Below are positions 4,212 through 14,428 of a DNA stretch of 61,330 bases, in pieces. The translations under genes were made by a program, and so were the position numbers. Below the pieces are notes generated by a model. It worked only from the letters and a program-made list of their open reading frames with translations. It was not told the DNA's origin and searched no databases. Origin of the DNA: Candidatus Desulfaltia sp. (lineage in GTDB: Bacteria; Desulfobacterota; Desulfobacteria; Desulfobacterales; ETH-SRB1); contig JAUSPN010000053.1 in assembly GCA_030656555.1 (NCBI GenBank), positions 1-61,330 of the forward strand. The letters are read 5' to 3'. Positions within the stretch are counted from its first letter, which is position 1. Each line of letters starts with the position of its first letter.

Positions 4212-5474
4212 TCAAATCTTTGTTATCGGTAAAACCCTGCGATAATATTTTCCATTTTCGATAGCTCTAATCAGAACCTTATTCCCATTCGGGCTGAAAA
4301 CCGGATTCCATAAAGCTTCGCAATAATGTTTCCATGGCTTACCATTAATGACAATGGTATAATATTCTTTTTTCCCCACCTTAGCTGCAACATTGCGGCT
4401 GTCCGGGCTGAAAACCGGTTGCCATGCCATGTCATAGGTATCTTTCCATGACTGGTCGTCGACAACAATGGTCCATCGCCCTTTATCCCTGCCGGCTGCG
4501 GCCACACTGTTGCCGTCCGGGCTGAAAACAACATCTGTGATAAGGTCGCTAAACGTTGTTATCCAGGGATGTCCGTCCACAGCTATTGTCCATTTGCCGA
4601 ACTTGGGTGCAACAATAGCTGCCAGTTTTGAACCGTCAGGACTATAGATTTGGCCCCATAGCTGAAAAAACTTGCGATCCCATGTCTGTTTTCCGTTTTC
4701 AGCGAGAGTCCACTTGTCCGCCACCCTTACCGGCGCTGCAACTGCTTTATTGTCAGGACTGAACACAGGCGCCCAAACGCAACTAAATGTATCTTGCCAG
4801 AGCGCCCCATCCACCGCCACAGTATAATCATAAAGACTTGTTCTAACTTCGGCTGCCAGCTTCTTGCTGTTTGGGCTAAAAGCCAATCCCCATACATTCA
4901 CAAAATTTCTGTCCCAGGCTTTGCCGTCAGGCGCTGCCGTATAGCATCCCTCCTGAAACTTAAAAATATCACCTTTTCTAAATGCTACGGTTTGAACCAC
5001 GGCCGCTGTCCTTTTGCCATCTGGACTTATCGTAAGGTTATTTATGTCGTAAAACATCTTTTCCCAGGATTCGTCGTTGACGACAACACCATACTGACTG
5101 TCTTGCCTGATGGTCGCAGCGATATTCTCGCCATTTGGGCTAAATATGGTATTCCACACATAATCGAAGCTATTTTTCCAGGCATTGCCGTCCACAGCAA
5201 CCGTCCATTTGCCTTTCTGAGAGACAAGAGCTGTGAGCCGGCCAGCAGGTCCGAACCTGGTGTGCCAAATCCTGTCAAAGTGGTTTCCCCAGATTTTTCC
5301 ATTAACACAGACATTGAATTCGCCTTTCCCAATCTTCACAATAGCTGCTATCTTTTCTCCATCTGGACTGACATTTGGCTCTTCGACCCACTCAAACTTA
5401 GCCTTCCAGTTACCGGTATTCGCGACCAGTCTGGTGCCTGTCTCCCAGTTCCAACAGTTTGAATAGAGCATCAT
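4212..5474 (-). CDS. Tryptophan-rich WD40-like beta-propeller protein, TmcD-like
   Basis: 420 residues built of roughly ten repeats. Each carries an FSPDG/SPNG turn, then KxAA(x)V, a WTVAVDG strand and a W-x5-F/Y-x3-W spacer, so tryptophan is very abundant. There is no signal peptide, so it is probably cytoplasmic. TmcD, the fourth Tmc subunit in Desulfovibrio, is described as a tryptophan-rich protein, and here the gene directly precedes a TmcB-like gene (12-base gap). A scaffold role in the complex is inference. Two ATGs stand in tandem at 5474 and 5471; the GGGAGG Shine-Dalgarno at 5476-5481 fits the second better. A good sigma-54 promoter lies 30-50 bases upstream. Confidence 0.75.
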   Translation of the reverse strand: MMLYSNCWNWETGTRLVANTGNWKAKFEWVEEPNVSPDGEKIAAIVKIGKGEFNVCVNGKIWGNHFDRIWHTRFGPAGRLTALVSQKGKWTVAVDGNAWKNSFDYVWNTIFSPNGENIAATIRQDSQYGVVVNDESWEKMFYDINNLTISPDGKRTAAVVQTVAFRKGDIFKFQEGCYTAAPDGKAWDRNFVNVWGLAFSPNSKKLAAEVRTSLYDYTVAVDGALWQDTFSCVWAPVFSPDNKAVAAPVRVADKWTLAENGKQTWDRKFFQLWGQIYSPDGSKLAAIVAPKFGKWTIAVDGHPWITTFSDLITDVVFSPDGNSVAAAGRDKGRWTIVVDDQSWKDTYDMAWQPVFSPDSRNVAAKVGKKEYYTIVINGKPWKHYCEALWNPVFSPNGNKVLIRAIENGKYYRRVLPITKI

Positions 5475-7468: not shown

Positions 7469-8257
7469 ATGGATAATACTTTTTCTGTATTAACACTCAA
7501 TCTGCGTTTTGGCCTGGCAGATGACGGCCCCAACAACTGGAATCACCGGAAAAAATGCTTTCCCTATCTTTTAAAAAACCATAGCGTAGACTTTATCGGT
7601 TTTCAGGAAGCAAACGATTTCCAAACAGATTTTCTTAAAGATATCCTGCCTGAATTTAACTTTATTGGAAAGAGAAGCCCTGCTCCGTCCTTTTGGCAAA
7701 ATAATATTATTTTCTATAAAAAAACATGGGAATGTATTCATAATGAACACTTTTTCCTGAGCCAAACGCCAATGATACCCAGCCGTTCCCGTGAAAGTCG
7801 TTGGCCCAGGCAATGCACTATTGGAATGTTTAAAAATAAAAACCGGGTTTTGATATATATAAATACCCATTTTGATTTTGATGCCGCAGTCCAGACCAAA
7901 AGCGCCAAGCTGATTATGGAACGGTTATCACACCTGCCGCCTAAACCACCCGTAATTCTCATGGGAGACTTTAATGCGATCCCTTCGTCTCCTTGTTATA
8001 AGATATTAACAGGTCAGAATAAAAAATCAAATTCAACAAACAGGCTCTATTTTAAAAACACCTTCAGAAAACCTTTCCCTGGAACACACCACGGGTTTTC
8101 AGGAAATAAAAACGGGAATCATATTGACTGGATTCTTTATAGCGGCGGAATTATTCCTCAGGAAAGCAAAATAATATACGATATAATTAATGGGATTCAT
8201 CCATCAGATCACTACCCGGTTTATGCAAAATTCAAATGGGAAAGGGATGGAGTCTAA
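7469..8257 (+). CDS. Endonuclease/exonuclease/phosphatase family protein
   Basis: 262 residues with the family signatures in order: TLNLRFG near the N-terminus, GFQEA (metal-binding Glu) at about 48, INTHFDFD near 130, LMGDFNAIPSS at about 165, HIDWIL near 225, and the C-terminal SDHYPV with the catalytic His. Members cleave phosphodiester or phosphomonoester bonds with Mg; this length and motif set resemble the YafD/YbhP-type group. No signal peptide. It is a single gene facing the minus-strand cell-envelope train, with only 10 bases between its stop and the bactofilin stop, so the two are convergent. The substrate cannot be told from the sequence. Confidence 0.85.
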   Translation: MDNTFSVLTLNLRFGLADDGPNNWNHRKKCFPYLLKNHSVDFIGFQEANDFQTDFLKDILPEFNFIGKRSPAPSFWQNNIIFYKKTWECIHNEHFFLSQTPMIPSRSRESRWPRQCTIGMFKNKNRVLIYINTHFDFDAAVQTKSAKLIMERLSHLPPKPPVILMGDFNAIPSSPCYKILTGQNKKSNSTNRLYFKNTFRKPFPGTHHGFSGNKNGNHIDWILYSGGIIPQESKIIYDIINGIHPSDHYPVYAKFKWERDGV

Positions 8258-8267
8258 AAAAATCTCT

Positions 8268-8612
8268 TTATTTTATTGGTTCCTGTTTTGAAATACAATT
8301 TACCTCGGCATTTAACATTCCACCGGCCTCAACCACAAGATTTTTACATACGACCTTGCCGCTGCAGCTTCCTGTTGAAAGTATAATCAGCTCAGTAGAC
8401 GCGTTGAGGTCCCCTTCAAATTTTCCGCCGATTGTTATGCTTGCGACCTTAGTATCAGCGCAAACAACCCCTCCTTCGGCAATAATCAAGGTTTCTCCGA
8501 CAAGGGTTCCTTTCACAGCACCTTTTATTACCAGTTTTCCTTTAACAGAAACCGTACCATCAATTGTCAGCCCCTCATCAATAATAGATATATTATCCGA
8601 TTTGTTCCACAT
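8268..8612 (-). CDS. Bactofilin (polymer-forming cytoskeletal protein, CcmA-like)
   Basis: About 114 residues, nearly all a right-handed beta-helix of short hydrophobic repeats (GKLVIKGAVKGTLVGETLIIAEGG and similar turns), flanked by short tails. This is the bactofilin fold, which self-assembles into filaments that position peptidoglycan enzymes. I place the start at the ATG at 8612 because GGAGAGG lies five bases before it; a longer frame from 8639 lacks such a site. It is the last gene after an M99 carboxypeptidase and a YkuD protein, like the CcmA/Csd partners that set helical shape in Helicobacter. Role in cell curvature is inferred from this context. Confidence 0.85.
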   Translation of the reverse strand: MWNKSDNISIIDEGLTIDGTVSVKGKLVIKGAVKGTLVGETLIIAEGGVVCADTKVASITIGGKFEGDLNASTELIILSTGSCSGKVVCKNLVVEAGGMLNAEVNCISKQEPIK

Positions 8613-8705
8613 GACGCCTCTCCTGAACCATAAAAGCAAGTATATTCCCCATAGTTTGTAGTGGCTACTCTTATAAAAGTACGCTCATACAACATGGCCG
8701 TGTAT

Positions 8706-9614
8706 CTATTGTAAAACAGGCTCTTTCAAATCGACAATCAATTCGCCTACCTGTTTTTCATTGCAGGTAACTACCACCCGATAGGAGATCCCATTTTTGT
8801 TCAGAGAATAGCGTTTCCAGAGATCTCTGGCCGTGTTAATTACATAACCTCTGTCTTCTCCGGTATTATTGCTGGTGTTGCCGACATAGCCTTTAAAATT
8901 CACGATCATATCTGCCGGATTTCCGGGACCACCAATTATATCAACAATTTCAAATCTATCGCCATTGATCAGTTTAACATGATCATTATTTGAAAACATA
9001 TGTTCCTTGTCATTAATTTTTATTTTAAAGGAGTCTATTTGTGGAGTCAAAAGCTGCCTTTTTGTGATTGATACACCTTGAGCTATGTTTTTTTCGCTTT
9101 TATTAATTGCCAGATAAACGCTTCCACATGAAAAGAAATCTTTTTTTACTATAATTCGTGTAGGCCCGGTTATGCTGATTTTCTTTCGCATATCGTGAAG
9201 AGTTCCATAGCCGACAACATCTGCAGAAAGACCTCTCTCGTAATTAGCTTCCATATGCGATATTAAAACAGTATCTCCGGAATTAATATTCAGCGTCTGC
9301 TGGTTTTTAACAACTATCGGCAAAGAATCGTTTACCGAAATAATCAGATAATCAAGCACAGGTTTATCCATGTTCAGGCCCGGCGTTTCAGGAACAATTC
9401 CAAATGTTTCCATAAATGCATTAATTGCAAGATTATGATGCCGCACATTCATCAGCAGAGGCAACGATTTGCTGGCCTCAATCCCAAATGCCGGTATCCC
9501 GCGTTTATACAAAGCATAATAGGTTGCAGATCCGCGTTGCTCCTTATGCAAAGAGGTTTTTTCGATTGTTTTGTGATTGTTGAAAGAAAAGTAATAAGCG
9601 GGATCTTTTATATT
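8706..9614 (-). CDS. C-terminal half of frameshifted Csd4-like (M99) carboxypeptidase
   Basis: This frame is open from 9614 down to the stop at 8706, but its first start-like codon is a TTG at 9551. Upstream of that TTG the frame encodes DPAYYFSFNNH and continues to HKEQRGSATYYA and IPAFGIEASKSLP. These are the end of the M99 catalytic domain, including the likely catalytic Glu in GIEAS. Beta-rich accessory domains follow to the C-terminus. It completes the protein begun at 10240, and a -1 shift at 9608-9617 joins the two. It therefore cannot be a functional protein on its own. The break may be a genuine mutation, a sequencing indel in an A-rich run, or a rare recoding site. Confidence 0.75.
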   Translation of the reverse strand, partial: NIKDPAYYFSFNNHKTIEKTSLHKEQRGSATYYALYKRGIPAFGIEASKSLPLLMNVRHHNLAINAFMETFGIVPETPGLNMDKPVLDYLIISVNDSLPIVVKNQQTLNINSGDTVLISHMEANYERGLSADVVGYGTLHDMRKKISITGPTRIIVKKDFFSCGSVYLAINKSEKNIAQGVSITKRQLLTPQIDSFKIKINDKEHMFSNNDHVKLINGDRFEIVDIIGGPGNPADMIVNFKGYVGNTSNNTGEDRGYVINTARDLWKRYSLNKNGISYRVVVTCNEKQVGELIVDLKEPVLQ

Positions 9615-10240
9615 TTATTGATCTTTGCAACTATCGATCTTGCCATATCACCAAGATGAATGGTCTGCCCTGTTTCAGAACTTACATAAGACTCGCAATC
9701 AGCAATAATTGATTGTCCAAATTTTTTGGGATTTCTTGCAGGCCCCTCCCATTTATCAGAATAGAAACCTGATCCATCATGCAGGTTAAGCATACAATCA
9801 CTTTCATTAATCAATTTTTTTAAAATTTCAACGATCTTAGTTTCATAGTTATGTTTAAGGTCTTCTGCAAACTTCCGATTCATATCATCATTTATTTTCC
9901 GGCGTTTTAAAATAATGGACTGAAAATTAGCTCTTGGCACGACTATCAGATTACCTTTGGCCAGGCTGATATCTGCATAATGGTCAACAGAAAGAAAGCC
10001 TCCTGGTTCATCTCCCTGTATGCCGCCTATAAGCAGAAGCGTTTTGCCGGGAATTTCACCGTAAACATTGTACACATGAAGTTCATGATCCGTGCCCTCA
10101 AAAAATATTGTATGAATTCTTTTTTGTGCTGCGGCGATACCAGGCAGAAAAAAAACAGCAATAATTAAAAACGCAACAATTATGTTTCTGCAGCCCATGT
10201 AAAATCCGGTTTGTTTGTTTTTCTTAAACAATATTTTCAT
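9608..10240 (-). CDS. N-terminal half of frameshifted Csd4-like (M99) D,L-carboxypeptidase
   Basis: 210 residues. A signal peptide (hydrophobic 18-38, cut near AAAQ) leads into the M14/M99 fold. IGGIQGDEPGG holds the atypical zinc ligands Gln and Glu (QxxE in place of HxxE), and LNLHDGSGFY holds the zinc His. Helicobacter Csd4 is known to use this Gln ligand. The frame stops at 9608 in AAT-AAA-ATA-TAA, yet the family continues; the rest is in the -1 frame at 8706-9614. Csd4/Pgp1 trims muropeptide tripeptides to dipeptides in the periplasm and is needed for helical or curved shape. The gene follows the membrane coiled-coil gene after 62 bases. The start has no clear ribosome site; an ATG at 10198 is an alternative. 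Confidence 0.8.
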   Translation of the reverse strand: MKILFKKNKQTGFYMGCRNIIVAFLIIAVFFLPGIAAAQKRIHTIFFEGTDHELHVYNVYGEIPGKTLLLIGGIQGDEPGGFLSVDHYADISLAKGNLIVVPRANFQSIILKRRKINDDMNRKFAEDLKHNYETKIVEILKKLINESDCMLNLHDGSGFYSDKWEGPARNPKKFGQSIIADCESYVSSETGQTIHLGDMARSIVAKINKI

Positions 10241-10302
10241 TATAGTATGTCGAGGGTCTAAAAAAGACTACAACAAGGTAAATGATACTTTTTACGACGC
10301 TA

Positions 10303-11157
10303 TCATGTTTGGTCTGAAACAGTTTCTTTAATCTCTACAGGTAAACTCTTTTCAAACAGCAGTTCACCTGTTTTGGTAAATACAAATACCGTAGCTGTTT
10401 TAAATCGTTTTGGGTCAGATTCATTTCGTGTTTTGAATTCGATAACTCTAAAGCGCGATATTGAAAAATACTGCCCTTTTTTAAACTCGGCTGGTTTACC
10501 TGACACCAGAGATACATATGGAAATGTCAGCCAGCTACTTTGATCATCTTCGTTTTGTTTTAGTATTACAAATACATGTCCTGAAACAGGTTGGTTGTTT
10601 TTAGTTGTTATTTTAAACTGAACATTCAATGTAGCTGTGTCTCGTTCAAATAAAAAACTAAAATCCTCCATAGCGATTCTTCGAATCTTTTCAGGCCCGG
10701 CAAGATCTATTTTTTCTTCGACCTGTTTCTTGTCAGGCAAAGAAGCTGTTTTGTCAATCGCTTTGGAATCTGCGGTTTTAACAAAAGAGTTTGAATCAGG
10801 CGATATATCGGTGTCTCTGTTTTTAATCTTGGATTCAGCCACAACAAGACGCACAACCAGCAGATCCTTTTCATCACGCAAAGACACAACCTCCTTGTGT
10901 GAAATATCCAAAGCATTGCTCAAATTCTTATTATCTTCTCTTGTGCTTTTGAAAATAATTAATAGCCAGGAAAAAGAAACTATAGCAATAACCAGTACAA
11001 TTGCTAACGTAATCCCCAGCCTTTGGGATATTCTTTTCGATATTATCTGCCCATAATCTCCTAAAAACAAAACACTCCAGGAACCAGCCTTTTTTGACAA
11101 TTTTGGTGGTGTGTGTGTTTTTACAATTTTTGCCAGGTTTCTCGAAAGATCTTCCAT
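10303..11157 (-). CDS. Inner-membrane coiled-coil protein of unknown function
   Basis: 284 residues. A basic N-terminal tail (1-45) is followed by one transmembrane helix (about 47-70, GITLAIVLVIAIVSFSWLLI), a short coiled coil with heptads (about 72-112), a polar linker, and a conserved-looking beta-rich C-terminal domain (about 160-284, MEDFSFLFERDTATLNVQF onward). The topology places the C-terminal part in the periplasm. I do not recognise the family. The gene begins 37 bases inside the YkuD gene and precedes the Csd4-like gene, so it is probably co-translated with shape or cell-wall enzymes. It could be a membrane anchor or scaffold for them, as Csd5/Csd7 are in Helicobacter; that is inference. 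Confidence 0.72.
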   Translation of the reverse strand: MEDLSRNLAKIVKTHTPPKLSKKAGSWSVLFLGDYGQIISKRISQRLGITLAIVLVIAIVSFSWLLIIFKSTREDNKNLSNALDISHKEVVSLRDEKDLLVVRLVVAESKIKNRDTDISPDSNSFVKTADSKAIDKTASLPDKKQVEEKIDLAGPEKIRRIAMEDFSFLFERDTATLNVQFKITTKNNQPVSGHVFVILKQNEDDQSSWLTFPYVSLVSGKPAEFKKGQYFSISRFRVIEFKTRNESDPKRFKTATVFVFTKTGELLFEKSLPVEIKETVSDQT

Positions 11158-12491
11158 CTACCTTTTTCCTGTACTAATATAAGTTTTTTTATTCCCTTTG
11201 CTTTGAACGTATTCGACGTATAAGTCTGAATAAATGAAACTGTAATTTTATTTCCTGATTTTTCAATAATCAGATTATCTCTTGCAATACGAATAAAATC
11301 ATATTTACTATTCAATCTATCTTTGTAGTTAAGCCATGCTTTGAGATTCATTCCCTGGAAAAGAAAATCGCTTGAATAACAACTTCCGTATCGCTTAATA
11401 TCCTTTACAGACCATGCCTGCAACCACTCATCAACAAAGTTTGTAATTTCATGTTTATCTTCAACCAGTTTTTGCAGGTTATGGCCTGCTGAAACAAGCA
11501 GATTGCTATTCTTTTGATTTATTGGGGCTCCATGAGATTCTTCGCCGACTATCCTGAAAGAATCTCCCATATTTGCCAGATAAAGTTTTTTGCTTCCTGC
11601 ATGTAATTCCTTGCCTGATGATCTTACAAACTGATCAAACAAGACAACATAAATCCCATTATGCCTTAAAATCGATCTTCCTTTTATTTCAACAGATAGA
11701 TCCAGATTAGATGCGGAATAAATCTTTTTAACTTTGTTCCACTCTGTCCACCAGGAAATATCAGGCAAATATTCAGGAGCATAACACTCCAGATATTCAT
11801 GATAAGTACCGTTCTCAAGCGCATTGTTCCATTGTTTAAGAAAATTAAAGATAGAGTTCTTAATCTTGCCCTTATCATCAAAAGAAGCATACGAAAGCTT
11901 GTCCACAATGACAATGGGGGTTTTATGCAAGACAATATATTTTGCCAGCCTATCAATATCCTGGTTTGCCAGCACAACACACCCGTTTGAATCCCTTGCT
12001 TTTATAGGCTGGTTGGTTCCATGAAGCCAAATTGAATGGCCTTTGCGACCTTCAATTCGATCAAAAAAATTAGGGTAATCTATTGGGAAGGCCATTGTTC
12101 CATATATTAGCGAAAGATCCTTCTTTTTATACTCATTGGTGAAAAAGTAGAGCCCCTCAGGAGTTTTTTTGTCCCCTGATTGGGATTTCCTCCCGACCGC
12201 CTCGCCGGTTGAACATTTAAAGCGATACATTTCCTTAAAGGAATCATCACCATAAGAATAGAAAAGTAATTGCTGAACACCCTTTTCAACCACCATCGCA
12301 TATTTTGCAGAGCTGTCATTATCAAACGAAATAAACACATCCGGTACTTTTGCCGGGCTTGGCTGCTGGCTTGCAACAACCTCCAACCCTGCCTCCTTAT
12401 GCTGTGATGCTGAAACTCCTAAGCTAATTAACGGCAACATAATCAGCGCAAGCCATATATAAAATATCCGCATCTTGATATAACGAGCCAT
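11121..12491 (-). CDS. YkuD-domain L,D-transpeptidase/carboxypeptidase with NTF2-like domains (Csd6-like)
   Basis: 456 residues. Signal peptide at 1-28 (hydrophobic, VSA-S). The YkuD catalytic domain spans about 60-200, with SIWLHGTNQP and SNGCVVL giving the His and Cys nucleophile. Two NTF2/SnoaL-like segments follow (about 220-330 and 345-456, each with a FLKQWNNAL or FVDEWLQAW helix and a terminal KWKIFRETW-type strand). Helicobacter Csd6 and Campylobacter Pgp2 are YkuD proteins with a C-terminal NTF2-like domain that act as L,D-carboxypeptidases on muropeptides. The same architecture next to an M99 enzyme and a bactofilin supports that role here. An ordinary L,D-transpeptidase is the alternative. 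Confidence 0.82.
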   Translation of the reverse strand: MARYIKMRIFYIWLALIMLPLISLGVSASQHKEAGLEVVASQQPSPAKVPDVFISFDNDSSAKYAMVVEKGVQQLLFYSYGDDSFKEMYRFKCSTGEAVGRKSQSGDKKTPEGLYFFTNEYKKKDLSLIYGTMAFPIDYPNFFDRIEGRKGHSIWLHGTNQPIKARDSNGCVVLANQDIDRLAKYIVLHKTPIVIVDKLSYASFDDKGKIKNSIFNFLKQWNNALENGTYHEYLECYAPEYLPDISWWTEWNKVKKIYSASNLDLSVEIKGRSILRHNGIYVVLFDQFVRSSGKELHAGSKKLYLANMGDSFRIVGEESHGAPINQKNSNLLVSAGHNLQKLVEDKHEITNFVDEWLQAWSVKDIKRYGSCYSSDFLFQGMNLKAWLNYKDRLNSKYDFIRIARDNLIIEKSGNKITVSFIQTYTSNTFKAKGIKKLILVQEKGRWKIFRETWQKL

Positions 12492-12510: not shown

Positions 12511-13320
12511 CTATAAGTTGTTTGATGCCACTGTAACCGTATCCCACCTGTCGGCCATAAAATAGCGCCTTGCGTTGCCGCAATTTACAGCTATTTCAAG
12601 ATATCCTCTGCTGCCGATAATAGCAAGAGGGCTTTGTGGCAATACGTTTTCATACGTTTTTGATAATCCAATAATTTTCTTTTTGCCTATCCTGAATTCC
12701 AGTTTTTCTTTTTTGCAGAACTTGCAAAAATTATCAAGGCTCTTTTCATCTATATTCGTAATCAGGTTGCCGAATCCGTCAATAAATACAACGGCCCCCA
12801 CAAGTTCGCCGCTGTTTGAAATAGAGGCTTGCTCGATAAACAGCTTTTTTAAATCTATTTTATCTGTTGGAACACCTAATGCTTTAATTTCAACCCCGTT
12901 AGACAGGTGAGCGGCAACAGGAGCAAAAACATCTCTTCCATGAAAAGTTCGGCTCACAGATTCTAAAAAATAACGCGGGTCCTCAACACGAACAATCGAG
13001 CCGATATTAGGTTCATCCATTAAAAAGGTTAAAACTCCATTATCCGGTGCGAGAAAAATATGGCCTGTTACTTCAATGGCGATTATTGCACGCTCACTCC
13101 CAACTCCAGGGTCTATAACGACAACATGAACCGTTCCTTCAGGAAAAAATTTGAAAGAATGTTTTATTACATATGCGGCCTGGATTAAATCCTGAGGCTT
13201 GATATGGTGAGTAATATCAACGATAATAGCGGCAGGGTTAATGGAAAGGATAACGCCCTTCATGACCCCGACATACTCATCATCAACACCGAAATCGGTA
13301 ATTAGAGTAATTATTGACAT
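12511..13320 (-). CDS. S-adenosyl-L-methionine hydrolase (adenosine-forming), DUF62 family
   Basis: 269 residues, full length for the SAM hydroxide adenosyltransferase family. The N-terminal LITDFGVDDEYVGVMKG, VDITHHI, HVVVIDPGVGSER, LAPDNGVLTFL, FHGRDVFAPVAAHL and GAVVFIDGFGNLITNI motifs match the family in order. These enzymes use water to split SAM into adenosine and methionine in the cytoplasm. The gene lies between ruvB (61 bases) and the Csd6-like gene (19 bases) on the same strand and is probably part of the same transcript. No functional link with its neighbours is evident. Confidence 0.9.
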   Translation of the reverse strand: MSIITLITDFGVDDEYVGVMKGVILSINPAAIIVDITHHIKPQDLIQAAYVIKHSFKFFPEGTVHVVVIDPGVGSERAIIAIEVTGHIFLAPDNGVLTFLMDEPNIGSIVRVEDPRYFLESVSRTFHGRDVFAPVAAHLSNGVEIKALGVPTDKIDLKKLFIEQASISNSGELVGAVVFIDGFGNLITNIDEKSLDNFCKFCKKEKLEFRIGKKKIIGLSKTYENVLPQSPLAIIGSRGYLEIAVNCGNARRYFMADRWDTVTVASNNL

Positions 13321-13381: not shown

Positions 13382-14428
13382 TCACCTTTGAGCTTCTCGT
13401 TTCTGAACACTAAAACCAAGGTGTCTGTATGCGGATTCAGTAGCCTTTCTTCCTGAAGGGGTCCTTATAATCAGACCGATTTTAAGAAGATACGGCTCAA
13501 CAACGTCAACGAGCGTATCCGCCTCTTCCTGAAGTGTTGCAGAAATTGCTTCGATGCCGACCGGACCGCCATGATAAAACTCGATTACTGTTTTAATGTA
13601 TCGGCGATCAAGATGGGTCAGCCCTTTTTTATCAACTCCTTCCAGGGCCAGAGCCTCTTCAACTGTTTTCTTTGTAATCTTTCCATCTGCCCTGACCTGG
13701 ACATAATCCCTTACACGTTTAAGAAGCCTGTTTGTAATTCTTGGAGTTCCTCTGGATCTCTTTGCAAGCTCAATTGCGCCTTTATCATCAATACTAACTT
13801 TAAGTAATTCTGCGGAACGTCTGCCGATTTTCACAAGATCCTCTTCTCCATAAAAATCAAGGCTTCTTAATATGCCGAATCGATCCCGCAAAGGAGCCGA
13901 TAACAGCCCAACACGAGTAGTTGCGCCAACAAGGGTAAAAGTGTTTAGACGGTATCTATGACTACGGGCATATGCCCCCTTATCAAACATAAAATCAACG
14001 GCAAAATCCTCCATTGCAGAATATAGAAACTCTTCCACGGTCTTTGGCATTCTATGAATCTCATCTACAAACAGGACATCCCCTTCTTCAAGGTGGGTCA
14101 GAATTCCTATCAGATCTCCGGCTTTTTCAAGCGCCGGCCCTGAAGTCACGGTAATATTGCTCCCCATTTCCTTGGCAATAATATAGGCCAGGGTGGTTTT
14201 CCCAAGGCCGGGAGGCCCATGGAAAAGGACATGATCTATAGGTTCCTTACGCTGCATAGCGGCTTCTATCGCTATTTTAAGGGTTTCAACAAGCTCTGTC
14301 TGGCCAACATATTCGAAAAGGCTTTGCGGACGCAATGACATGATTTCCGGTTCCTGATCAACAGGCAAACTTGATTTAGAAAGGATGCTGTTTTTATCAG
14401 AAGAATGTATCAGTATATTGTCTGCCAT
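13382..14428 (-). CDS. ruvB: Holliday junction branch-migration helicase RuvB
   Basis: 348 residues, normal length. Walker [10 protein letters not shown] near 70, Walker [10 protein letters not shown] near 120, sensor [19 protein letters not shown], and the C-terminal winged helix ([16 protein letters not shown], then a conserved RTPSGRKAT). RuvB forms hexameric rings that pull DNA through the RuvA-bound junction. The gene is third in ruvC-ruvA-ruvB, but 126 bases separate it from ruvA, and this gap carries a copy of the AACCGTGAACGGTT repeat. The N-terminus has a 28-residue extension before the conserved [11 protein letters not shown]. Confidence 0.96.

Follow-up and report, generated by a model that had tools for sequence, protein, structure and literature searches.

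Enzymes of the YkuD and M99 families act in the helical cell shape of Helicobacter and Campylobacter (PMC10151779, PMC3310797). Csd6 and Pgp2 combine a YkuD domain with one NTF2 domain, and Pgp2 is described as producing the substrate of Pgp1 (PMC10151779). Csd4 and Pgp1 belong to peptidase family M99, for which a Gln-Glu-His metal motif has been reported (PMC4220969). Bd1075 of Bdellovibrio bacteriovorus (PDB 7o21) carries a YkuD domain with a His/Cys active site and one NTF2 domain, with Y274 and W303 as convex-face targeting residues; its authors call the mechanism of such one-sided enzyme placement unknown, and the available part of their report names no cytoskeletal partner (PMC8938487).

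Bactofilins are described as having several morphogenetic roles (PMC10945521). LmdC of Hyphomonas and Rhodospirillum, encoded beside a bactofilin, consists of a cytoplasmic hairpin, one transmembrane helix, a coiled coil and a terminal M23 peptidase, and its conserved hairpin is reported to be critical for bactofilin binding (PMC10945521). Csd5 of Helicobacter pylori passes the membrane once, binds bactofilin with a short cytoplasmic part and exposes a non-enzymatic SH3 domain to the periplasm, whereas Csd7 is a multi-transmembrane protein (PMC9448923). In this study, we describe an operon in which both enzyme families stand together with a bactofilin and a membrane coiled-coil protein (referred to as CC). 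We consider that it probably encodes a transenvelope peptidoglycan-trimming machine that is organised by bactofilin, with CC as the adaptor, and that would most likely set cell curvature.

Results

Gene row and conserved neighbours

The analysed DNA, a stretch of 61,330 nt (the window) from a sulfate-reducing bacterium, contains all four families on its minus strand in the order YkuD, CC, M99, bactofilin between positions 8268 and 12491 (Table 1), as the first-pass annotation had described. The CC gene begins before the YkuD gene ends, so that the two have 37 bases in common. The four genes are part of a more extended conserved row; its first genes are those that we take to be ruvCAB, together with a SAM hydroxide adenosyltransferase gene. 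In the open-licence literature on bactofilins, on Csd4/Pgp1 in deltaproteobacteria and on Desulfovibrio curvature, no title or beginning of an abstract described such an operon.

Table 1 Features of the locus in window coordinates
Feature	Position	Strand	Basis or remark
Bactofilin, CcmA-type cytoskeletal protein, 114 aa	8268..8612	-	PF04519
C-terminal half of interrupted M99 gene, other frame	8706..9551	-	Separate ORF
N-terminal half of interrupted M99 DL-carboxypeptidase-type gene	9608..10240	-	Pfam M99, separate ORF
CC: hairpin, one TM helix, coiled coil, disordered linker, Ig-like domain	10303..11157	-	AlphaFold2, fold comparison
Predicted periplasmic Ig-like beta-sandwich of CC, residues 157-279	10321..10689	-	AlphaFold2, fold comparison
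Predicted cytoplasmic beta-hairpin of CC, residues 28-42	11032..11076	-	AlphaFold2, modest confidence
YkuD LD-carboxypeptidase-type protein, two NTF2-like domains (Bd1075/Csd6/Pgp2 kind)	11121..12491	-	Pfam, solved-structure comparison
Terminal NTF2-like domain, Bd1075 type, with Y274 and W303 equivalents	11124..11465	-	
First NTF2-like domain, matching the single NTF2 domain of Csd6, Pgp2 and Bd1075 in position	11538..11858	-	
SAM hydroxide adenosyltransferase gene	12511..13320	-	Upstream neighbour, conserved
ruvB (name presumed)	13382..14428	-	Upstream neighbour, conserved; recognised from sequence

The YkuD protein

The YkuD protein of the window scored above the Pfam cut-offs for both YkuD (PF03734, 69.2 bits) and the Cds6_C NTF2 domain (91 bits). 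Residues H157, G158, S168, G170 and C171 were invariant in an alignment of 20 YkuD proteins, with the conserved His and Cys present. The closest solved structure was that of Bd1075 (E = 3e-44), followed by those of Csd6 (E = 1.2e-19) and Pgp2 (E = 3.5e-15), and the AlphaFold2 model matched 7o21 with a Z score of 25.9. The combination of YkuD and NTF2 domains had been assigned to the Csd6/Pgp2 type; the combination is present, but the protein is nearer to Bd1075 and has two NTF2 domains, whereas Bd1075, Csd6 and Pgp2 have one. Two such domains were found in 40 of 41 order-level proteins but in just 17 of 29 phylum-level YkuD ORFs. The gene also differs from that for Bd1075 in adjoining those for CC, M99 and bactofilin.

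The residues that target Bd1075 to the convex face have equivalents in the YkuD proteins of the module. The W303 equivalent in the terminal NTF2 domain, which is of the extended form, is Trp in the window protein, as it is in 31/41 and 22/28 proteins of the two sets compared, and the Y274 equivalent is Tyr in 40/41 and 24/28. Both the LD-carboxypeptidase activity of the protein and its effect on shape are putative.

The interrupted M99 gene

The N-terminal half of the M99 gene exceeded the Pfam cut-off for M99 (93.9 versus 27 bits) and also passed that for the related AstE_AspA_cat model (34.5 versus 25). It contains the motif GGIQGDEPGG, and the Gln ligand is therefore present; the Q, E and H of the QxxE...H motif were conserved in at least 90% of 20 aligned rows, and the region of Glu222 is conserved as well. 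The sequence aligned to the solved structures 4q6m and 4wck, which we take to be Csd4, and the M99 profile reached an E value of 0.001 only with presumed Csd4 entries. Together with the nearest solved structures of the YkuD protein, this gives no sign that the enzymes are nearer to homologues without a role in shape. The M99 proteins of the module nevertheless form a divergent branch, scoring 94–162 bits in the phylum sample, in which Csd4-like copies reached 205–305 bits. Their DL-carboxypeptidase activity is putative.

A frameshift near 9.6 kb splits the window gene into two ORFs of different frames. The first-pass annotation of an M99 carboxypeptidase with a Gln zinc ligand is thus retained with respect to the family and the Gln residue, but not as a single intact gene. 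Alignment to a congener by blastn showed a single gap in 401 columns, and congeners hold intact M99 copies in one open frame; a programmed frameshift is disfavoured because relatives keep this single frame. An apparent fusion of M99 with bactofilin in the Olavius Delta 4 symbiont was not counted, given that the stretch between them looks like a read-through spacer and that the bactofilin retains its start codon.

The module might be decaying in this organism, with M99 a recent pseudogene and the CC–bactofilin–YkuD part working alone, a possibility that we regard as somewhat doubtful and that is compatible with the adaptor model. In addition to the frameshift, M99 was not found in a genome of the same genus (G006), in which bactofilin lies directly downstream of CC. 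Both M99 halves are, however, still constrained much as their neighbours are (dN/dS of 0.23–0.38), as would be expected if the frameshift arose very recently or is an error of sequencing or assembly, and the source genome is an assembly of 107 contigs. Given that M99 is broken here and was not found in G006, the full gene set appears not to be always needed by the proposed machine.

Bactofilin

The designation of the last gene as a CcmA-type bactofilin was confirmed by its PF04519 core, which scored 71.9 bits against a cut-off of 27.9. The gene starts with an ATG at 8612 that is preceded by a good ribosome-binding site, and it encodes the only bactofilin found in the source genome. Adjacency of bactofilin and M23 genes is absent here, with the three M23 genes found in the genome all located on other contigs.

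Gene order and co-occurrence in relatives

The proposal of a compact module is upheld by its order in relatives, with CC as a genuine new member. Gene order is conserved in other Desulfobacterota: YkuD-CC-M99-bactofilin was complete at 27 of 60 order-level CC loci, and a bactofilin lay downstream of CC at 45 of the 60. YkuD was missing upstream of CC at 19/60 loci and M99 downstream at 25/60, some of these cases being contig ends. Six of the 60 had no downstream bactofilin even though the contig continued, two of them corresponding to TPR proteins that have only the Ig-like domain in common with CC.

Across the phylum sample, CC lay just upstream of 40 of the 53 M99 genes scoring 90–170 bits. 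Locus-by-locus reading of the other 13 added three, for a total of 43/53; of the remaining ten, five lay behind YkuD without a CC match and five had neither gene alongside. By comparison, CC was upstream of none of 17 Csd4-like M99 genes (>200 bits) and none of five weak ones. Bactofilin was present in 69 of 71 genomes with CC and in 175 of 324 other genomes (Fisher P = 4e-14, a value inflated by species relatedness). Similarly, among 58 relatives, CC matches were found in 38 of 46 genomes with bactofilin and in one of 12 without (Fisher P = 3e-6, likewise inflated by relatedness). Operon-type bactofilins without CC were also encountered (L160 and L163–L166).

These distributions bear on whether the module serves peptidoglycan trimming in general, in cell width, division, recycling or wall maturation, with bactofilin simply gathering the enzymes. 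Complete or partial forms of the module are common across the order, which includes many non-curved members; one or other enzyme gene is often missing beside CC, as detailed above; and the several roles of bactofilins would also suit such a function. We nevertheless judge it rather unlikely, given that, for both enzymes, the nearest relatives of solved structure are proteins that determine cell shape and that the Bd1075 targeting residues are conserved. A role in curvature remains our preferred reading.

Structure and relationships of CC

AlphaFold2 predicted that CC passes the membrane once, with a short cytoplasmic N-terminus. The model contains a hairpin (residues 28–32 and 38–42, with a pLDDT of just ~53–72), a helix (45–115) and a beta domain (161–279). 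Comparison with solved folds indicated that the beta domain is Ig-like, with beta-sandwiches at Z scores of 7.6–9.7 among the matches listed; an SH3 domain and Csd4 were not among these matches, which by itself carries no weight. The window protein matched no Pfam or NCBIfam family above cut-off, and other CC members gave scattered weak matches. Against solved sequences, the best E value was 0.025, with coiled-coil proteins leading. CC appears to represent a previously undescribed membrane protein linked to bactofilin, for which no Pfam or NCBIfam model was found.

Two candidate relationships were rejected. A Foldseek search returned 46 matches at E ≤ 0.001, headed by ammonia/methane monooxygenase subunits and GH3 domains, but the TM-scores were all low and we did not take them as kinship. 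DUF6776, presumably a coiled-coil family neighbouring bactofilin in Pseudomonas, matched one of 34 members (E = 0.017) and none of 30 at E = 0.1, and none of 89 genomes scored above the Pfam cut-off.

CC resembles LmdC in its predicted cytoplasmic hairpin, single transmembrane helix and coiled coil as well as in the position of its gene beside bactofilin. The two proteins differ in that CC has the Ig-like sandwich where LmdC has its M23 peptidase, with no M23 match to CC among the families shown. The N-termini of CC proteins across the phylum were related in profile comparison to those of M23 peptidases of the order that are LmdC-like by layout, not by LmdC sequence (probability 96.6, E = 5.7e-10), whereas the MreC, PBP2 and AtpF controls gave probabilities of at most 13.2. 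An HMM of the CC N-terminus retrieved 23 of 28 LmdC-like M23 proteins among 5,751 ORFs. The coiled coil contributes to this signal, given that a coiled-coil lipoprotein (E = 4e-5 and 9e-5) ranked ahead of many M23 proteins (8.5e-8 to 0.016). Csd5 is likened to CC by layout, with its SH3 domain in place of the predicted Ig-like domain, and Csd7 differs from CC in that a single membrane helix is predicted for the latter. In three genomes (G073, G147 and G228), the Ig-like domain of CC is fused to YkuD-NTF2 (domain E values of 4e-26 to 1e-28).

The LmdC-like M23 hairpin is also present in a genome in which no bactofilin was detected (G014), and the hairpin alone is therefore no proof of bactofilin binding. 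This genome, together with the CC genes that have no bactofilin nearby, would suit an arrangement in which the hairpin docks elsewhere, for example on the elongation machinery, as that of the LmdC-like M23 proteins may do, while bactofilin acts separately. We consider this arrangement unlikely: CC and bactofilin co-occur almost exclusively and are often adjacent, and the cytoplasmic peptide of LmdC is reported to bind bactofilin (PMC10945521). Binding of bactofilin by CC is the reading that we carry forward.

Discussion

In the proposed machine, bactofilin would polymerise beneath the inner membrane and be bound by the single-pass CC via an LmdC-like beta-hairpin on its cytoplasmic side. CC would extend into the periplasm with its coiled coil and Ig-like domain and there recruit or hold the YkuD-NTF2-NTF2 LD-carboxypeptidase, which would convert tetrapeptides to tripeptides, and, if encoded, the M99 DL-carboxypeptidase, which would convert tripeptides to dipeptides. 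Trimming would thereby be limited to one zone of the wall, most likely setting curvature. More tentatively, CC may be the missing link between a cytoplasmic bactofilin filament and periplasmic LD- and DL-carboxypeptidases, with a single operon encoding an inside-to-outside relay that trims one side of the wall. In such a relay, the contact would probably lie between the terminal NTF2 domain of the YkuD protein and CC's Ig-like domain.

The operon may offer an example of how one-sided trimming of the wall makes a cell bend. If the relay reading is correct, it would supply a mechanism for the one-sided placement of enzymes, and an operon with enzymes, bactofilin and a bitopic adaptor would offer a concrete and testable answer to the question left by the Bd1075 study. 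It would also widen the idea of bactofilin clients, such as PbpC and LmdC, to carboxypeptidases. The W303 targeting feature, which had been reported as specific to Bdellovibrio, was found here in another phylum. Even if curvature should prove to be wrong, CC would remain a bactofilin-linked family with no Pfam or NCBIfam model found in the searches made here.

With regard to origin, the first-pass annotation had left the module as either ancestral or transferred. We favour the former on sequence grounds, because the distances of the module genes track those of RuvB and because the module is spread over numerous families in the phylum sample. Transfer of the set from Campylobacterota, which the shared helical-shape enzymes might suggest, is highly improbable, given that the gene order is also present in other orders of the phylum and that, within the order, the distances of all four module genes correlated with those of RuvB, which is encoded nearby (Mantel r of 0.60–0.91).

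Gene row and interrupted M99 gene

The module of the window comprises genes for a YkuD protein, a membrane coiled-coil protein (CC), a peptidase of the M99 family (Csd4/Pgp1-type DL-carboxypeptidases) and a bactofilin. The CC gene starts inside the 3' end of the YkuD gene, with an overlap of 31–62 bases, mostly 37, in mapped pairs of the order after exclusion of two rows for the second pieces of split CC genes. The bactofilin is the sole one detected in its genome, and three M23 peptidase genes were detected there, all on other contigs. A gene of the endonuclease/exonuclease/phosphatase family, encoded on the opposite strand, lies close to the bactofilin or CC end at 15 of 41 mapped loci, and a separate gene encodes a 420-residue protein with repeated beta-propeller-like (WD40-like) units.

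Features of the window around the module
Feature	Position	Strand	Place in direction of transcription
SAM hydroxide adenosyltransferase gene	13320-12511	minus	first
YkuD protein	12491-11121	minus	second
CC, membrane coiled-coil protein	11157-10303	minus	third
M99 gene, two frames	10240-9608 and 9551-8706	minus	fourth
Bactofilin	8612-8268	minus	last
Endonuclease/exonuclease/phosphatase-family gene	7469-8257	opposite
WD40-like repeat protein	4212-5474

The N-terminal half of M99 scored 93.9 bits (cut-off, 27) and carries the motif in which Gln replaces the usual His, and the C-terminal half gave an M99 match under the cut-off. The halves lie in different frames, and a blastn alignment with a congener contained one gap in 401 columns. 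The dN/dS values against three congeners were 0.23–0.38 for the M99 halves, 0.37–0.41 for YkuD, 0.42–0.49 for CC and 0.17–0.36 for bactofilin; both halves are under constraint comparable to that of their neighbours, which agrees with an error of sequencing or assembly or with a very recent origin of the interruption. Open frames of 450–515 residues with M99 matches were present in five congeners (G001–G005); M99 was not found in a sixth, G006, by the M99 search and locus map.

Gene order and descent within the order

The relatives are, by name, mostly Desulfobacterales or Desulfobacteraceae MAGs; the names include Eth-SRB1, Candidatus Desulfatibia vada, a Desulfobacula and Olavius symbionts. 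Matches to CC, M99 and bactofilin were obtained in 39, 23 and 46, respectively, of 58 genomes searched, with that of the window counted among them. We mapped 41 loci (the window and 40 other stretches) and 30 named loci, and removal of 11 named loci duplicating the first set left 60 CC loci. All four module genes were present at 27 of these, YkuD, CC and bactofilin at 7, CC and bactofilin at 8, CC, M99 and bactofilin at 3, YkuD, CC and M99 at 5, and YkuD and CC at 2, with CC standing without any module partner at the other 8. Fifteen CC loci had no downstream bactofilin: seven lie within 1.5 kb of a stretch end, L075 (the same as L108) has bactofilin in one open frame with M99, L094 has it upstream, and six (L068, L071, L080, L088, L090 and L091) lack it despite ample contig. 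L068 (9082-10443) and L090 (8144-10375) encode TPR-bearing proteins away from the operon that share only the Ig-like domain with CC. Recurrent upstream of the module are the SAM hydroxide adenosyltransferase gene and genes that we take, from recognition of their sequences, to be ruvC-ruvA-ruvB.

Among genomes with bactofilin and no CC match, a divergent CC precedes the bactofilin of G025, YkuD stands immediately before bactofilin in G031 and G038, operon-type bactofilins occur without YkuD or CC in G051, G053 and G021, and only bactofilins of other kinds were found in G046 and G052. Judging from the make-up of these loci, bactofilin looks like the most constant member in the order, followed by CC and then YkuD, with M99 most often missing.

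Distances within the order correlated with those of RuvB for YkuD (r = 0.83, 27 loci), CC (0.77, 39), M99 (0.91, 23) and bactofilin (0.60, 29), all with p = 0.001, and with those of CC for YkuD (0.87, 40), M99 (0.88, 32) and bactofilin (0.80, 43). These sequence distances favour joint vertical descent of the module genes.

In the Olavius algarvensis Delta 4 symbiont (L075/L108, 10056-12239), M99 and bactofilin share a 728-residue open frame, probably by read-through of the spacer, given that bactofilin keeps its own start codon. A second bactofilin class (L161, L167, L172, L173, L174 and L177) follows what we presume to be mreB-mreC-mreD-mrdA-rodA-like genes and precedes a presumed atpF-like gene, both recognised from sequence. 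At L213 and L214, bactofilin-YkuD genes adjoin genes presumed on the same ground to be parA/parB-like.

The membrane coiled-coil protein

No Pfam or NCBIfam model exceeded its cut-off for the CC of the window, and CC members in two alignments gave only weak, scattered matches (34 of A1 against Pfam; 30 of A4 against Pfam and NCBIfam). For two members of A4 there was a match to the model of the MXAN_5187 family (E, 3.6e-5 at best). An AlphaFold2 model from 29 sequences predicted strands at residues 28–32 and 38–42, a helix at 45–115, a disordered linker at 117–157 and a confident beta domain at 161–279, with pLDDT of about 53–72 for the hairpin blocks and about 87–94 for the beta domain. Among the best 50 matches listed, the beta domain (about 157–280) resembled Ig-like sandwiches of the GH2/transglutaminase kind (Z, 7.6–9.7), a common fold that is uninformative on function.

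LmdC is described in the excerpt of PMC10945521 as an M23 peptidase of bitopic topology, in which a short cytoplasmic segment is joined by a transmembrane helix and a coiled coil; its conserved cytoplasmic hairpin was critical for bactofilin binding in Rhodospirillum, and binding of the peptide was shown in Hyphomonas. An M23 protein of the order (L097 and relatives) matches this layout. Comparison of N-terminus profiles with 28 such LmdC-like M23 proteins gave, with E-values per single pair, a probability of 96.6 (E, 5.7e-10) for phylum-wide CC and 72.8 (E, 3.2e-5) for order-level CC, versus at most 13.2 for the control profiles MreC, PBP2 and AtpF. The CC N-terminus HMM recovered 23 of the 28 M23 proteins among 5,751 open reading frames (E, 8.5e-8 to 0.016), the sole further matches being one divergent CC, MreC (domain E, 0.25) and a coiled-coil lipoprotein, which was present in two overlapping stretches and outscored many M23 proteins (E, 4e-5 and 9e-5). 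The lipoprotein match indicates that the coiled coil adds to the signal; with that protein set aside, M23 proteins account for the match. Genome G014 has an LmdC-like M23 protein (L141) and no detected bactofilin, which counts against an exclusive link between hairpin and bactofilin.

Co-occurrence with bactofilin

In the phylum sample of 395 genomes, the first CC profile, built from the order alone, matched 53 genomes and the CC profile matched 98 at E 1e-5, an upper figure in that some weaker matches confined to the N-terminus are probably LmdC-like M23 proteins. M99 matched 72 genomes (70 over the cut-off) and bactofilin 244. Bactofilin was present in 69 of 71 CC genomes (best E ≤ 3e-10) versus 175 of 324 others (Fisher, 4e-14), and among the 58 relatives CC matched in 38 of 46 genomes with bactofilin versus 1 of 12 without (Fisher, 3e-6), in tests that ignore relatedness and include other bactofilin classes. 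At the CC threshold of 1e-5 the phylum counts were 93 of 98 versus 151 of 297. The two CC genomes without bactofilin, G099 and G172, have completeness values of 67 and 78%, and in the one such relative, G011, the contig ends shortly past the M99 start (L066). The 38 include G015, for which the CC match is to a TPR protein, and exclude G025 with its divergent CC.

YkuD protein and proposed relay

Three YkuD-NTF2 proteins of the phylum carry the Ig-like domain of CC at their C-terminus, at the place of the second NTF2 domain (domain E, 1e-28 in G228, 1e-28 in G147 and 4e-26 in G073). The fused gene lies between bactofilin and M99 without a separate CC in G228 and G073, and is followed by a separate CC in G147. 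Domain fusions of this sort are usually a sign of partner proteins.

The closest solved relative of the YkuD protein is Bd1075 (E, 3e-44; profile, 4e-73), followed by Csd6 and Pgp2. The model superposed on Bd1075 with Z 25.9 over residues 47–322, with a second NTF2 domain at 341–456; in sequence comparison, it is the terminal NTF2 domain that resembles that of Bd1075 (i-Evalue, 1e-24), and Csd6 aligns via the first. YkuD frames with two recognised NTF2 domains numbered 40 of 41 at order level and 17 of 29 at phylum level. According to the excerpt of PMC8938487, placement of Bd1075 at the convex face requires a complete NTF2 domain including W303, a residue absent from other LD-carboxypeptidases, and Y274A causes partial mislocalisation. 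With numbering verified against C156, H141 and A142 of that excerpt and aligned chain positions, Trp occupies the position of W303 in 31 of 41 YkuD proteins at order level and 22 of 28 at phylum level, and Tyr occupies that of Y274 in 40 of the 41 and 24 of the 28.

The most likely arrangement is a relay from bactofilin through CC and the LD-carboxypeptidase to M99, in which binding, placement, activity and effect on shape are all proposals. Bactofilin filaments beneath the membrane would bind the CC hairpin; CC would span the membrane and hold the LD-carboxypeptidase via its terminal NTF2 domain or nearby; and M99 would work next, on the LD-carboxypeptidase product. In the corresponding steps given in the excerpt of PMC10151779, Pgp2 trims tetra- to tripeptides, making the substrate of Pgp1, which trims tri- to dipeptides. 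Nearest to CC in working principle, with no kinship implied, is the Helicobacter protein Csd5, which crosses the membrane once, binds CcmA on the inner side and attaches to the wall on the outer side by an SH3 domain (PMC9448923). PbpC is another bactofilin client, binding through its cytoplasmic tail according to the excerpt of PMC12448750.

M99 classes and their position

A Gln-Glu-His metal motif is present in at least 90% of 20 aligned M99 rows, two of which are the halves from the window. Only three PDB sequences, which we take to be Csd4, reached E 0.001 with the M99 profile. The same motif is described for Csd4 in the excerpt of PMC4220969. Pgp1/Csd4 homologues were already noted in curved delta-proteobacteria (PMC3310789 and PMC3310797), and the presence of M99 here is therefore not new. 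Descriptions of the operon and of CC were not found in the open-licence literature searched (titles and abstract openings on bactofilin, Csd4/Pgp1 and Desulfovibrio curvature).

By score, M99 of the phylum sample fell into a Csd4-like class (17 places, 205–305 bits), a lower class (53 places, 94–162 bits) and 5 weak matches. With CC places typed in 85 of the 98 genomes, and with second segments and CC matches at E 1e-7 or worse excluded except for three that were kept, CC stood directly upstream on the same strand at 40 of 53 lower-class, 0 of 17 Csd4-like and 0 of 5 weak places. Reading of the other 13 lower-class loci located CC in 3, YkuD directly before M99 with no CC found in 5, and neither in 5; no CC was seen beside M99 at the three Csd4-like loci read (L243, L245 and L246). 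The 17 high-scoring Csd4-like places, including those in G133, G166, G245, G264 and G348, lie outside the operon, as do Csd4-like copies among the relatives in G024, G030 and G048. Both kinds of M99 occur together in G264 and G348 of the phylum sample and in G024 and G030 of the relatives.
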